The position numbers and the translations under genes were made by a program. DNA of 64,000 nucleotides from Chloroflexota bacterium (GTDB lineage Bacteria; Chloroflexota; Anaerolineae; Aggregatilineales; J027), in the NCBI GenBank assembly GCA_024434115.1, contig QMIT01000001.1, positions 372,001-436,000 on the forward strand. Direction: 5' to 3'. Shown here piece by piece: positions 2,687-12,839 of this stretch. How positions within the stretch are numbered: position 1 is the stretch's first letter; each line of letters begins with the position of its first letter. The notes beneath the pieces were generated by a model. The model did not search any database, was not told where the DNA came from, and saw only the letters and a list, made by a program, of their open reading frames with translations.

Positions 2687-3724
2687 ATGCCTCAAGCTAT
2701 TTTGACCTGTGACCCCGATTCCGTTGATTTTGCCCGCCATGAATTAAAAGAAGCCGCTCCAAATGCTCATATTGAAGAAATCTTATCCCCCGGTGTGCTG
2801 CTGGTTGAGTTAGGAGATTCCTACTGGGAGTTTGCCGAGAAATGGCATCAACAGCCGCCCATTTTTGTGCGCCATCTCTGCCCCGTCCAAGTGACTGTGC
2901 CCTTACATTCCACCCCGCAGGATTTAGACGACCTATTGCAGGCTGTCGCGGTGGAATTTAATGAATTAATTGACCCTGAACTGTCATTTTCGGTGCAGAC
3001 CCGTATTTTGACTAAGGACTATCCCCTCAAGCCCTTTGATGTGAATACCGCCCTCGCCAATCTGATTCACGAGTCTACCGATGCCCCACTGGATGTCCGT
3101 AAGCCCCTGCAAATTTTGTCAGTAGTGGTCGCCCAAAATCCAGCCATTGCCTATCTTGGCCTTTCACCAACGATGCTGAATATCTCGGATTGGGCCGGGG
3201 GGATGCGGCGTTTCATGCACGAAGACGAACAGATCAGCCGCGCCGAATTTAAGTTATTAGAGGCACTGGAAGTTTTTAAGATTGAACCGCCTGTGCGTGG
3301 TTTGGCCCTCGATCTGGGTGCTGCGCCGGGTGGGTGGACACGCATTTTGCGGCAAAAAGGCCAGTATGTCACCGCGATTGATCCAGCCAGCTTGGATATT
3401 CGGCTCAAGGGGGACGATGGGATTCGCTATTTACGCATGACCGCCCAAGCCTATCTCAAAGATGAGCCAGATTTCTATGACTTGATTGTCAACGATATGC
3501 GGATGGATGCGCGTGATTCAGCCCGTGTCATGGTTTCCTATGCCCCATTTCTATACCCGCATGGGGCAGGGTTGATGACCCTCAAATTGCCAGAGGAAGA
3601 TCGGCAGCCTGTTCTTAAACAGACCTTCGATATTTTGCGCAAAGCCTATATCATTGCCGGGGCACGTCAGTTGTTTCATAATCGCAGTGAAATTACAGTG
3701 TACCTGAAGCCACAAAAACGCTAA
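2687..3724 (+). CDS. RlmM/FtsJ-like SAM-dependent RNA 2'-O-methyltransferase
   Basis: The C-terminal half carries DLGAAPGGWT around residue 210, the SAM-binding signature of the FtsJ/RrmJ Rossmann fold. VTAIDPASLD, a later NDMRMD segment and a Lys in LMTLKLP are consistent with the K-D-K-E set of 2'-O-methyltransferases. The N-terminal 150 residues resemble the THUMP-containing part of RlmM, which methylates C2498 of 23S rRNA in E. coli. The length (345 aa) is close to RlmM. The open frame extends upstream to 2642, but the ATG at 2687 begins the conserved MPQAILTCDPDSVDFA segment and fits the family better. Whether the target is the same nucleotide is unknown. Confidence 0.75.
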   Translation: MPQAILTCDPDSVDFARHELKEAAPNAHIEEILSPGVLLVELGDSYWEFAEKWHQQPPIFVRHLCPVQVTVPLHSTPQDLDDLLQAVAVEFNELIDPELSFSVQTRILTKDYPLKPFDVNTALANLIHESTDAPLDVRKPLQILSVVVAQNPAIAYLGLSPTMLNISDWAGGMRRFMHEDEQISRAEFKLLEALEVFKIEPPVRGLALDLGAAPGGWTRILRQKGQYVTAIDPASLDIRLKGDDGIRYLRMTAQAYLKDEPDFYDLIVNDMRMDARDSARVMVSYAPFLYPHGAGLMTLKLPEEDRQPVLKQTFDILRKAYIIAGARQLFHNRSEITVYLKPQKR

Positions 3725-4340: not shown

Positions 4341-5586
4341 GGTGTTGTCGGCTATTTTGGTTATTGCCTTATCGCCACTTTTTGTTCCACACCATGCCCA
4401 TGCTCAAGATACAACCCTGACCGTCCTAGCGGCTGCTTCACTAACGGATGCCTTTGAGGAAATCGCCGGGACATTTGAGGCTGTCAATCCGGGAGTGAAC
4501 GTCGAATTTCAATTTGGGGCGTCGTCCGACCTAGCCGCACAGTTGGCCGAGGGTGCGCCTGCCGATATTTTTGCGAGTGCCAATAATCGGCAAATGCAGG
4601 TGGCAAAGGATGCGGGTCGGATTGAAGGCAAAACGTACACGTTCGTCAAAAATCGTTTGGTAGTGATTGTACCTGCTGATAACCCCGCTGGAATTGAATC
4701 CTTGCATGATTTGGCGAATGATGGGGTGCTGCTGGTAGTGGTAGCGGAAGGCGCTCCGGTACGCGATTACACCAATGCGATGGTAGATAAATTGGTCAAT
4801 GTGTCGGGCTATGGAGAGGAGTTTAAGAGTGCCTTTTTCAGCAATGTCGTTTCTGAAGAGGACACCGTGCGGCAGGTTACGGCAAAGGTCGCATTAGGGG
4901 AAGCCGACGCGGGTTTGGTCTATGTTTCAGATGTCACGCCGGATATCGCCGAAGACGTCAAAATGATAAGTGTGCCGGATGCCTACAATACACTGGCGAC
5001 CTACCCAATTGGCATCACCAATGATTCAGCCAACAAGGAATTGGCCCAAGCGTTTATTGATTACGTGCTGTCCGATGCGGGGCAGGATACCTTAGTGGCC
5101 TGGAACTTTATCTCGGTGCGGATTCCTGAAATACCGAATACCGTTAGCCTACCTACCGATGGCCTACTGCATGTGGGGGGGCAGGTTTATAACCCGCTCG
5201 TCTTGACTATGGATAATCTACGCGCTTATCCCTCACAAACCGCTGAAGTGACGTATCTAAGCGGGGAGGATACTGTTGATGCAAGTTTCACAGGCGTGAT
5301 GTTGTGGGATATTTTGAGCAGCGCACAGGTCAATTTTAATGCCGACGTAGGCAATGATAAATTAGGCTTCTATATCGTGGCGACAGGCAGCAATGGCTTT
5401 CAAGCTGTCATTGCATGGGGTGAGATTGATCCTGAATTTGGCAATCAACCTATCTTGGTCGCCTATGAAAAAGATGGAACAGCTTTGGAGGCTGCCCAGT
5501 TGGTGGTTCCCGGTGATGGTCGGGGTGGCCGCTATGTGAGTGGTCTTGTTAGCTTGGAAGTACGTGACGCCCCTTCTGTAGAATAG
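4330..5586 (+). CDS. modA: Molybdate ABC transporter substrate-binding protein with extra C-terminal domain
   Basis: A signal peptide ends near AHAQ (residues 23-26). Residues 28 to about 255 form a ModA periplasmic binding domain with the diagnostic LTVLAAASLTDAFEEIA start and GASSDLAAQL, the oxyanion-binding region. At 418 aa it is about 160 aa longer than usual ModA. The extra part (about 268-418) has a beta-rich sequence including LHVGGQVYNPLVLTMDNL, resembling the molybdopterin-binding fold of sulfite-oxidase-like proteins. It lacks the cysteine that ligates Mo in the catalytic enzymes. The ModA call is firm; the nature of the added domain is inference. modB follows after 6 bp. Confidence 0.85.
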   Translation: MKRRVLSAILVIALSPLFVPHHAHAQDTTLTVLAAASLTDAFEEIAGTFEAVNPGVNVEFQFGASSDLAAQLAEGAPADIFASANNRQMQVAKDAGRIEGKTYTFVKNRLVVIVPADNPAGIESLHDLANDGVLLVVVAEGAPVRDYTNAMVDKLVNVSGYGEEFKSAFFSNVVSEEDTVRQVTAKVALGEADAGLVYVSDVTPDIAEDVKMISVPDAYNTLATYPIGITNDSANKELAQAFIDYVLSDAGQDTLVAWNFISVRIPEIPNTVSLPTDGLLHVGGQVYNPLVLTMDNLRAYPSQTAEVTYLSGEDTVDASFTGVMLWDILSSAQVNFNADVGNDKLGFYIVATGSNGFQAVIAWGEIDPEFGNQPILVAYEKDGTALEAAQLVVPGDGRGGRYVSGLVSLEVRDAPSVE

Positions 5587-11498: not shown

Positions 11499-11531
11499 GA
11501 GGGGTATCCGCAGGGATGCCCCTCATTTTTT
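11499..11531 (+). terminator. Rho-independent terminator of glnA
   Basis: GAGGGGTATCC (11499-11509) pairs with GGATGCCCCTC (11514-11524) through 11 bp (one G-U) with a GCAG loop, followed by ATTTTTT. It isolates glnA from the following tRNA gene. Confidence 0.9.
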
Positions 11532-11558
11532 GTTGTTCAAGTCAATCTGCGGTATCAT
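11530..11558 (+). promoter_or_regulatory. Candidate promoter of the CUA tRNA cassette
   Basis: TTGTTG (11530-11535), a 17-bp spacer and TATCAT (11553-11558) place transcription start about 15-17 nt before the tRNA 5' end at 11582. The -35 overlaps the end of the glnA terminator T-run. Confidence 0.45.
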
Positions 11559-11581
11559 CTTTTTTATGCTTTTGCGAGTTT

Positions 11582-11653
11582 GGGTCATATGCTCGTTGGA
11601 TGGGCGGCGGACTCTAAACCCGCTAGAAGCGAGTTCGATTCTCGCATGACCCA
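11582..11653 (+). tRNA. tRNA with anticodon CUA (UAG-reading, putative amber suppressor)
   Basis: The cloverleaf can be drawn completely. The acceptor is GGGTCAT/ATGACCC (7 perfect bp) with discriminator A11653. The D stem is GCTC/GGGC with G18-G19 in the loop. The anticodon stem is GCGGA/CCCGC (A31-C39 mismatch) with loop CTCTAAA. A 5-nt variable loop, T stem GCGAG/CTCGC and T loop TTCGATT follow. Anticodon CTA is at 11614-11616, with canonical U33 and A37. CCA is not encoded. The core is odd: A at position 8, G14 and U15 replace the near-universal U8, A14 and R15. The acceptor (GGGTC, A73) and loop resemble tRNA-Lys(CUU) with U36 changed to A. It is not tRNA-Pyl, since the variable loop, T loop and D loop are standard. 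Charging identity is unknown. Confidence 0.75.
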
Positions 11654-11666
11654 TTGTGGAGGAAAT

Positions 11667-11729
11667 ATGTTGTAGGTTTACTATTCCAAAACGAGAGACC
11701 CCCCAAACTGTATCTCCCTCTCTACCTGA
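11667..11729 (+). CDS. Leader ORF with in-frame UAG at codon 3
   Basis: GGAGGA (11658-11663) precedes ATG 11667. Codon 2 is TTG and codon 3 is TAG (11673-11675). If UAG is read, translation continues in frame to TGA at 11727-11729, a 20-residue peptide. Without readthrough it is a two-codon minigene (Met-Leu-stop). The Shine-Dalgarno begins only five bases after the tRNA 3' end, so tRNA processing would release an mRNA starting right at this leader. The readthrough part spans the left arm of the hairpin at 11708-11762. This fits a regulatory leader whose full translation requires the CUA tRNA. Function is inferred from arrangement only. Confidence 0.55.
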
Positions 11730-11762
11730 ACTGATGTTTATGCAAATCAAGAGGAGATACAG
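11708..11762 (+). promoter_or_regulatory. Hairpin sequestering the ribosome binding site of the 140-aa gene
   Basis: CTGTATCTCC (11708-11717) pairs perfectly with GGAGATACAG (11753-11762), and TCT/AGA adds 3 bp after a bulged C. The right arm contains the Shine-Dalgarno (GAGGAG, 11751-11756) of the gene starting at 11765. The left arm lies inside the leader ORF, 33 nt beyond its UAG. A ribosome stopping at the UAG would leave the stem intact; one reading through to 11729 would open it. Confidence 0.6.
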
Positions 11763-11764
11763 AC

Positions 11765-12187
11765 ATGAATACCCTTCCAAAAGCGATCACCGCTCAAATA
11801 ACAGTTGACCTTTCTACCTACCAGAGTATCCGCAGCCACTGGAGTGATTTGATGCGCTCCACACGCAGGCAAGAATTACGGGCTTCGCATCATCTGCTTT
11901 ACCTAGCGCTGTTAGGTAAGGATTGGCGCAAGGCTTTTCGCTGTCTTTCTAATTCAAACAAACTCAATAATGGCGCGTTTCCGGGATGGGGACTTTTTTG
12001 CGCCACAGCCGTACTGCATATGGTAGCGTGTGAGGAGGAAGTGCTGGCTCCATTTGATGGCCTTGTTACGCCAGCCATGCTTCAGCAGGTTCGGCAATTG
12101 ATCCCGGTTCCGAATGCCTACAAACTCAAACCGGAACAATTTGTGGCAGGGGAGTTTCCCTTTGAGGCGTATGTTGTGCCCGCTTGA
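11765..12187 (+). CDS. Unrecognised 140-aa protein of the CUA-tRNA cassette
   Basis: A compact soluble protein without signal peptide, membrane segment or cysteine metal site. Recognisable stretches are a basic SHWSDLMRSTRRQ segment near residues 24-36, SHHLLYLALLGKDWRKAF at 41-58, a GAFPGWGLF turn, and an acidic C-terminal half ending in FEAYVVPA. I cannot assign a family. It starts at ATG 11765 with GAGGAG 9-14 nt upstream, and that site is buried in the leader hairpin. The PTH2-like gene follows after 38 bp and is probably in the same transcript, which suggests a role connected with the CUA tRNA. Confidence 0.75.
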   Translation: MNTLPKAITAQITVDLSTYQSIRSHWSDLMRSTRRQELRASHHLLYLALLGKDWRKAFRCLSNSNKLNNGAFPGWGLFCATAVLHMVACEEEVLAPFDGLVTPAMLQQVRQLIPVPNAYKLKPEQFVAGEFPFEAYVVPA

Positions 12188-12225
12188 GTCAAGGCCTAAG
12201 TCTAATTAGCCGACAGGAGGAAACG

Positions 12226-12633
12226 ATGCCAGAATCCTAGACGGTTGCACAGGTATATGCCTATGTTCTTGTCCGAACCGACATTGCCCTTGAACAGCAA
12301 ATTGTGCAGGTCGGACATGCGTGTTTGGAAGCAGGACGTAGATTTGACTGGCCGGATACCCCCTGTAATCTTGTTGTCCTCGGTGTTGCCAACAGTGGTG
12401 AATTACAGGCCACGATTGAACGGGTGCAACTGGCTGAAGTGCGTATCGCGCTGTTTTATGAACCAGACCATCAGCTTGGGCTAACGGCTGCCTGTACAGA
12501 ACCCATCTCCGGCGCATTTAGGCGACTCTTTCGGCGCTTTCCTCTTTGGAATGTGGATGGGGCAACCTCAGCACGCGGGCCACCACACCGCGTTTTCCTG
12601 AAGTCGCGGGTTAATGAACGTATGTTCTATTGA
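12226..12633 (+). CDS. Peptidyl-tRNA hydrolase 2-like protein with in-frame UAG at codon 5
   Basis: A strong ribosome site (AGGAGG, 12215-12220) precedes ATG 12226. Codons run ATG CCA GAA TCC TAG, then stay open to TGA at 12631-12633 (135 residues counting UAG). The part after UAG follows the PTH2 fold: VYAYVLVRTD strand, QQIVQVGHACLEAG helix (PTH2 family: KGKxAAQVAHA), NLVVLGV strand, a helix, RIALFYEPD and GLTAACTEPI, ending RRFPLW. PTH2 enzymes release tRNA from stalled peptidyl-tRNA. No ATG, GTG or TTG lies in frame between the UAG and GTG 12304, and starting at 12304 would remove the first strand and RTD motif. Intact protein therefore needs UAG readthrough, which the tRNA 585 bp upstream could provide. 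The alternative is a recent nonsense mutation. Confidence 0.7.
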
Positions 12634-12839
12634 TTGGAGTTATATGCGCCGAAGTTGAATCCGTAACCACGGTTACGCATGAGTTTGAATGACAACAATG
12701 ATGTTAATAAACGGATGGGCTTGGATAGGCGATTTTGAGACTAAGCAAGGTAAAAGTCTAACTGTTTTCCAATGGAACCAAAACTTGGTTCGACACCCAC
12801 GCAGCATGACCTGTTGGGGGTGTCCGATAGAAAGACAAT
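12634..12839. other. Intergenic stretch after the cassette with two hairpins
   Basis: CGTAACC (12662-12668) and GGTTACG (12671-12677) form a tight hairpin. GACACCC (12792-12798) and GGGTGTC (12818-12824) form a second one with a 19-nt loop. Neither has a T-run. No convincing gene is visible; the second hairpin may end transcription from either side. Confidence 0.35.

Follow-up and report, generated by a model that had tools for sequence, protein, structure and literature searches.

A probable local stop-codon gate, operated by a cognate suppressor tRNA, in PTH2-like genes of an Anaerolineae bacterium and of phages

The prfB gene, which encodes RF2, is autoregulated by way of an in-frame UGA near its start, where a frameshift sets the level; like the genes described below it is a translation-related gene with an early stop, but these appear to use a dedicated suppressor tRNA in place of the frameshift. 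The ribosome-arrest attenuators ermC and tnaC combine a leader peptide with a hairpin that hides the next ribosome site. The locus analysed here shares both features with them, the difference being that its arrest region would be reached only after suppression of a UAG codon. For the suppressor tRNAs of code 15 and code 4 phages a role in the regulation of lytic genes has been proposed (PMC10879173, PMC9523058). As is proposed here, UAG or UGA codons of phage genes are read there by a phage-encoded suppressor tRNA to which a regulatory role is ascribed; here, in contrast, UAG keeps its stop function in most genes, the codon concerned lies next to the tRNA in a single conserved gene family, usually at codons 3-5, and the module is found in bacterial chromosomes too. 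Other phage suppressor tRNAs have been left as orphans: XacN1 carries two CUA tRNAs per terminal repeat, whose target its authors did not find (PMC5852040), Summit has a suppressor tRNA for which its authors named no target (PMC9022506), and Atu_ph07 has been reported with a UCA suppressor tRNA (PMC6102473). The same tRNAs are taken up below, with candidate targets added. A full-text search of open-licence papers returned no report linking a suppressor tRNA to such a gated gene; the proposed gene switch is without previous description in the papers covered, an earlier report elsewhere being possible.

The cassette and its Anaerolineae relatives

The window analysed is a 64,000-nucleotide stretch of Chloroflexota (Anaerolineae) DNA, in which a tRNA with the anticodon CUA, a leader containing UAG, a hairpin burying a ribosome site (SD), orf140 and a PTH2-like gene follow one another in that order (Table 1). 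An earlier note on this DNA had picked out the CUA tRNA, the UAG leader, the hairpin and the UAG-containing PTH2-like gene, and each of the four is found where it had been placed. That much of its account stands; absent from it were the phage homologues, the R-D-P-P codons that precede the hairpin arm and the partner with an HD domain. What it observed is real and has a wider reach than it supposed.

Table 1. Positions of the cassette features in the window, and of the leader cassette of phage Summit
Feature	Position	Strand	Basis or remark
glnA terminator	11499-11524
Candidate promoter, TTGTTG-17-TATCAT	11530..11558	+	read in the sequence; directly 3' of the glnA terminator
tRNA, anticodon CUA (amber suppressor)	11582..11653	+	ARAGORN (11581-11654), Rfam
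Leader SD, GGAGGAAA	11658-11665
Leader ORF, ATG-TTG-UAG-GTT...TGA	11667..11729 (ATG 11667)	+	sequence reading; kept in relatives
Leader UAG, codon 3	11673-11675
R-D-P-P codons	11694..11705	+	lie directly before the 5' arm; may act as a polyproline pause site
Hairpin 5' arm, CUGUAUCUCC	11708..11717	+
Leader TGA	from 11727
Hairpin 3' arm, GGAGAUACAG	11753..11762	+	includes the SD of orf140
orf140, protein of unknown function	11765..12187	+	predicted all-helical
SD of PTH2-like gene, AGGAGG	12215-12220
PTH2-like gene, MPES-UAG-TVAQVYAYVLVRTD...	12226..12633 (ATG 12226, stop 12631-12633)	+	UAG readthrough required; PTH2 fold by AF2 + Foldseek
In-frame UAG, codon 5 of PTH2-like gene	12238..12240	+	sequence; kept in L032, L033, L034, L044
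Dispersed repeat, ~80 bases	12614-12700		directly 3' of the PTH2-like gene; many copies in genomes of the genus
Summit leader cassette	L135 49442-49945		same leader also at L364, L365

The tRNA has no encoded CCA and carries a 31:39 mismatch in its anticodon stem; it is complete yet diverged, its Rfam tRNA score of 42 bits being above the cut-off and the lowest among the genome's 45 tRNAs. Identical or near-identical copies are carried by four relatives (L032, L033, L034, L044). Among the genome's tRNAs examined the nearest is tRNA-Tyr (GUA), with differences in the anticodon arm mainly at the first anticodon base and at position 39, a likeness that offers a lead to the origin of the tRNA and says nothing on its charging. 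A CUA tRNA with a linked UAG target, as befits an amber suppressor, is present, and its charging and its decoding of UAG in the cell are predicted. The candidate promoter ahead of it is graded weak because a consensus scan found no match there and picked up the terminator only; its TATCAT and spacing are also present in L034.

The leader's readthrough frame is open to its TGA and specifies the peptide MLxVYYSKTRDPPNCISLST. Its UAG and R-D-P-P are kept in five Anaerolineae, and across these five genomes the R-D-P-P codons differ by nothing but synonymous changes (AGA/CGA, CCC/CCT, CCA/CCG/CCC), which, judged by sequence only, argues for translation of the leader. The M-P-E that precedes the UAG of the PTH2-like gene behaves in the same way, codons 2 and 3 differing only synonymously (CCA/CCT, GAA/GAG) in the four species aligned; together these changes indicate selection on the reading frame to either side of the UAG. 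Taken alone, the leader's folding energy is unremarkable (z = -1.4); what sets the hairpin apart is its conservation and covariation. Comparison of the window with the arms in L034 (GUUGUAUCUC/GAGAUACAAC) and L044 (GUUAUAUCUCCUU/AAGGAGAUAUAAC) reveals two pairs altered on both sides with pairing preserved; the arms co-vary in L031, L034 and L044, and in the phage contig L139 they are replaced by another helix. The proposal that the hairpin buries the ribosome site of orf140 and overlaps the readthrough part of the leader is borne out by these conserved, compensated pairs. A P-P pair lies just 5' of the hairpin's 5' arm in the window, L034, L044 and L139, mostly as R-D-P-P, with R-A-P-P at the equivalent position in the phage. 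The downstream orf140 has homologues in four further Anaerolineae and in L139; its predicted structure (AF2 mean pLDDT 78.6) gave no fold match.

The PTH2-like frame offers no usable start between its UAG and the domain: the ORF caller's sole option, a GTG at 12304, lies within the conserved domain. The readthrough product is predicted with AF2 at a pLDDT of 94.9, and all 13 PDB matches returned by Foldseek at E < 0.001 are PTH2 entries (probability 1.00, TM 0.69-0.85 over the query). The fold is that of the PTH2, Bit1 and PTRHD1 hydrolases. In place of their canonical D-A-G-x-T, however, the present family conserves R-D, Q, H, E-P-D and T-A, with E-P-D...T-A standing where the canonical motif would, and the sequence falls short of the Pfam cut-off (PF01981, 15.1 bits against a gathering score of 23). 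For these two reasons "PTH2-like" is the proper name, hydrolase activity is not assured, and the protein is best called a putative peptidyl-tRNA hydrolase.

Three of four congeners hold the same cassette: tRNA-CUA, a leader beginning ATG-TTG-UAG, orf140 and a PTH2-like gene with UAG at codon 5. Close relatives having a sense codon in place of the UAG and no CUA tRNA would speak against suppression, and the search for them went the other way, the three congeners that have the gene keeping both the UAG and the CUA tRNA. In the fourth, G004, the match extends only to the end of glnA, with neither a PTH2-like gene nor any other cassette match; at G004:C11:14824-15043 (L355) the glnA end gives way to unrelated sequence that may be an inserted element. 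The layout is repeated in one more Anaerolineae MAG (L044), whose PTH2-like gene starts MVSER-UAG. The cassette was not found in the 399 other Chloroflexota genomes sampled (the single hit among 400 being the source genome itself), and plasmids gave no match to it.

Putatively gated PTH2-like genes in phages

Searches with the readthrough protein matched jumbo phages in whose annotation the PTH2-like gene was lacking or split. The domain turned up at 224 loci in scans of viral contigs, one genome scan and annotated phages; dereplication left 128 of them. A gene was counted as gated if an in-frame stop lay 5' of the domain, with an ATG a few codons before the stop and no ribosome-site ATG after it; by this rule 83 loci are gated and 44 ungated, and one is at a contig edge. 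The gated genes have the pattern ATG-(1-9 codons)-stop-core, the stop being UAG in 77, UGA in 5 and UAA in 1. It is codon 3 in 53/83, and UAG at codons 2-10 accounts for 77/83. Under a stricter rule the arrangement occurs in 7 of the 2768 other long open frames of the studied loci, against 83/127 PTH2-like genes, which excludes chance.

CUA is also the commonest anticodon of these loci, present in 75/128, with the next commonest in 22. The earlier note had asked whether UAG in this family goes with a CUA tRNA; it does so in 59 UAG-gated genes, which have tRNA-CUA in the locus. The other 18 UAG-gated loci have no CUA tRNA within the stretch examined; the complete genomes of XacN1, RAS14, LR756511 and CBB all contain tRNA-CUA. 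About 12 PTH2-like genes have a CUA tRNA nearby and no UAG in either PTH2 or HD (e.g., L055, L107, L110, L111, L114, L323), so that the association may have a second reason. In phages the tRNA and its target are close together. The full cassette is found in the 177.7-kb phage contig L139: a UAG leader, an SD-burying helix (UCUCCUAA/UUAGGAGA) unlike the bacterial one, an orf140 homologue and an MSLDL-UAG-PTH2 gene, with the tRNA-CUA 1.7 kb off. UAG is also found deep within PTH2 or HD genes (L120, L122/L324 and CBB-type phages).

Several individual arrangements may be recorded here. At L121 4902-4990 a tRNA-CUA ending in CCA is overlapped by the ATG of a UAG-gated PTH2 gene, and maturation of this tRNA would therefore cut the message and remove its ribosome site. 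The 735-kb phage L133 (about 4995-5100) has UAG at codon 3, a second UAG inside PTH2 and two CUA tRNAs. In phage RaK2 (L129, about 4960-5001) the domain is preceded by LH-UAG-VNN-ATG, which looks as though the gate had been lost and a new start codon gained. At L102 4234 a second PTH2-like start, ATG-UAG-IGSKLIVITRRDL, leads into an unrelated C-terminal part. Finally, ATG-ACN-UAG starts two more small families near tRNA-CUA in several phages (L072 6734, L076 5419 and L101 7241; L063 6784 and L064 6972), one of which resembles a zinc ribbon.

The identity of the stop is matched by that of the anticodon. UAG-gated genes have CUA in the locus in 59 cases and UCA in none, while the UGA-gated genes have UCA in 5/5 and CUA in none (Fisher 1.3e-7, a value that overstates independence because the rows are related). 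Kinship is addressed by a tree of 122 proteins, whose columns are few and whose deep forks are poorly supported. It places the UGA genes among UAG genes in four or more groups, each with support of its own. UGA rows stand beside UAG rows, L245 with L246, for example, and L082 with L069 and L217. Codon and anticodon have therefore switched together more than once. The phage Atu_ph07, chosen from the paper as a test, has a PTH2 gene that starts ATG-ATT-GGC-GAA-CAC-TTT-UGA (ATG-5 codons-UGA), with a weak SD; two additional PTH2 genes of this phage seem to lack a gate, and the 80 kb around the UGA-gated gene do not include the UCA tRNA. In a Neisseriaceae MAG (L046, about 3655-3674) ATG-CAT-UAA precedes the domain, and no UUA tRNA was found among its 30 tRNA loci examined. 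UUA tRNAs, possible ochre suppressors, occur in phages with the PTH2-like gene at L351 2428 (RAS14), L087 10129, L233 and L132 4236 (Lak-A1).

An HD gene accompanies the PTH2-like gene in 27/128 loci, with UAG near its start in 11 and inside it in 5, and UGA in 1. In L286, L297, L314 and L251 a tRNA-CUA goes with a PTH2 gene lacking UAG, and the UAG is in the HD gene instead. In XacN1 (ORF364) and RAS14 an HD-like domain is fused to PTH2 and the fused frame starts ATG-AAG-UAG; the XacN1 PTH2 core itself is without UAG. The HD domain has no Pfam match, so "HD-like" rests on the H...HD...D alignment pattern, and the sole PDB matches of the domain are weak (E 0.017), to entries named poly(A) polymerase.

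These arrangements bear on the orphan suppressor tRNAs. The CUA tRNAs of XacN1 are confirmed here, and the HD-PTH2 fusion is the only convincing SD-ATG-x-UAG gene of that phage; no other convincing one was found in ME3 or the L139 contig. Summit has no recognisable PTH2 of the PTH2-like family. Like DLP_3 and DLP_5, which are Stenotrophomonas phages too, it has an MK-UAG-VYKPP-stop leader followed in a row by an SD hairpin, a small gene and tRNA-CUA, and the UAG leader before CDS_069 is a likely target of Summit's suppressor tRNA. The candidate targets suggested by these sequences are accordingly the HD-PTH2 fusion for XacN1, the UAG leader for Summit and the UGA-gated PTH2 gene for Atu_ph07.

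Readings of the proposed gate

UAG is still a stop in these genomes: it ends 18/52 long ORFs in the window, 20/236 in ME3 and 76/452 in viral flanks, and the source genome has RF1 as well as an ordinary Pth. The expectation that UAG serves as the normal stop and is hardly open to global reassignment is thus upheld by the 18/52 long window ORFs, and code-15 recoding is rejected on the same ground. Insertion of a non-standard amino acid, pyrrolysine or selenocysteine, because that residue matters, is suggested by ARAGORN's labels of tRNA-Pyl and tRNA-SeC for these anticodons. A pyrrolysine system was rejected, as the best PylS match in the genome scores 20.8 bits against a cut-off of 178 (in a search that 1/14 control genomes passed), and so was a selenocysteine tRNA for the UCA cases, these tRNAs being canonical, 73-77 nt long and without the long variable arm. 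The tRNA bodies and discriminator bases, moreover, vary from locus to locus, from which it follows that the identity of the inserted residue is probably not what counts, and the position of the UAG ranges from codon 2 to mid-gene; a special residue is hard to credit. That pseudogenes, sequencing errors or wrong start calls have produced the pattern is next to inconceivable: beyond the stop codons themselves nothing speaks for it, and the same stop recurs in five Anaerolineae assemblies and in the phage isolates ME3, CBB, BF-like, XacN1, RAS14, Arash and pT24, before a conserved core and over the low background given above, while covariation of stop and anticodon refutes it. Covariation also weighs against a minigene in which AUG-x-UAG would act by terminating or by shedding short peptidyl-tRNA, the tRNA being incidental. 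The frequency of stops at codon 3 and the documented early drop-off with Pth recycling (PMC10192219) are in keeping with a minigene, but UAGs deep inside PTH2 or HD genes are not, and we consider it very improbable. PADLOC defence models gave no match for the PTH2-like, orf140 or HD protein.

The earlier note proposed that UAG is read through locally, by the CUA tRNA next to it. This has gained support from four more Anaerolineae and from phage homologues with the same UAG, and further backing from independent changes of UAG to UGA, accompanied by the corresponding change of anticodon from CUA to UCA. The sequence comparisons support the cognate match of codon and anticodon, the retention of the gate and coding downstream of the UAG. 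On these grounds a cognate suppressor tRNA very probably gates the PTH2-like protein locally, and often the HD-domain protein too; that the whole is best explained as a self-contained stop-codon gate we hold with high confidence. The tRNA-CUA of the cassette, charged by an ordinary synthetase, would compete with release factor 1 at the UAG codons 3-5 of its neighbours. Termination there would yield nothing beyond a peptide of 2 to 4 residues, and suppression would yield the PTH2-fold protein; since the stop in the gene is cognate to the adjoining tRNA, the gene should be made only with that tRNA active. In the bacterium a second output would be orf140, under control of the leader. A ribosome reading through the leader UAG would enter the 5' arm of the hairpin, probably pausing at the conserved R-D-P-P (a P-P pause inferred from the codons), and so probably help to open the hairpin and free the ribosome site of orf140. 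In phages the outputs would be the PTH2-like protein and often its HD-domain partner, fused or adjacent.

What the gate is for can be said only tentatively. Peptidyl-tRNA drop-off, with its need for recycling by Pth, is greatest at early codons (PMC10192219), and a hydrolase whose synthesis tracks UAG suppression therefore fits feedback or recycling: short peptidyl-tRNAs released through suppression and early termination would call for a peptidyl-tRNA hydrolase. The favoured guess is that output possibly follows the balance between charged suppressor tRNA and release factor, and that the hydrolase recycles or limits the suppressor tRNA; hydrolase feedback on the tRNA, an idea of the earlier note, is plausible. 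The gate might instead sense release-factor activity, much as RF2 controls prfB through its in-frame UGA, PTH2 (and HD) being made when termination at UAG fails and the suppressor tRNA acting as a built-in competitor of RF1. Output must indeed go up as RF1 goes down, RF1 is present and UAG serves as a stop in the usual way, and the effector fold comes from a translation-rescue family; the UGA/UCA variants would nevertheless sense RF2, so that which factor is sensed would be immaterial, and it would have to be explained why phages should monitor termination in their hosts, which leaves such a sensor unlikely. A timing or safety catch, holding off proteins that are harmful early until the phage has its tRNAs transcribed, processed and charged, would suit the closeness of phage tRNA and target and the L121 tRNA whose 3' end overlaps the start codon of its target. 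It is rather improbable, however: transcriptional timing would be simpler, and the cassette is kept beside glnA in the bacterial chromosomes of several species.

With feedback as the purpose, the gate would represent a new class of switch, spread by phages and domesticated in a bacterium with its code unchanged, in which a hydrolase that limits or recycles the suppressor closes a homeostatic loop; this larger picture is put forward as a conjecture of somewhat less than even standing. If the gate itself is real, a stop codon is usable as a local, tRNA-operated gate while the standard code is retained. The purpose of phage suppressor tRNAs, a question raised in the XacN1 and Summit papers, would gain a testable answer, and gene calls would be corrected in many jumbo phages, whose annotations omit the PTH2 gene, split it or begin it within the domain. 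The gate would also constitute a natural orthogonal switch, in which evolution has already swapped stop codon and anticodon jointly several times, as a module present in the lineage of one bacterium and in many phages of diverse lineages.
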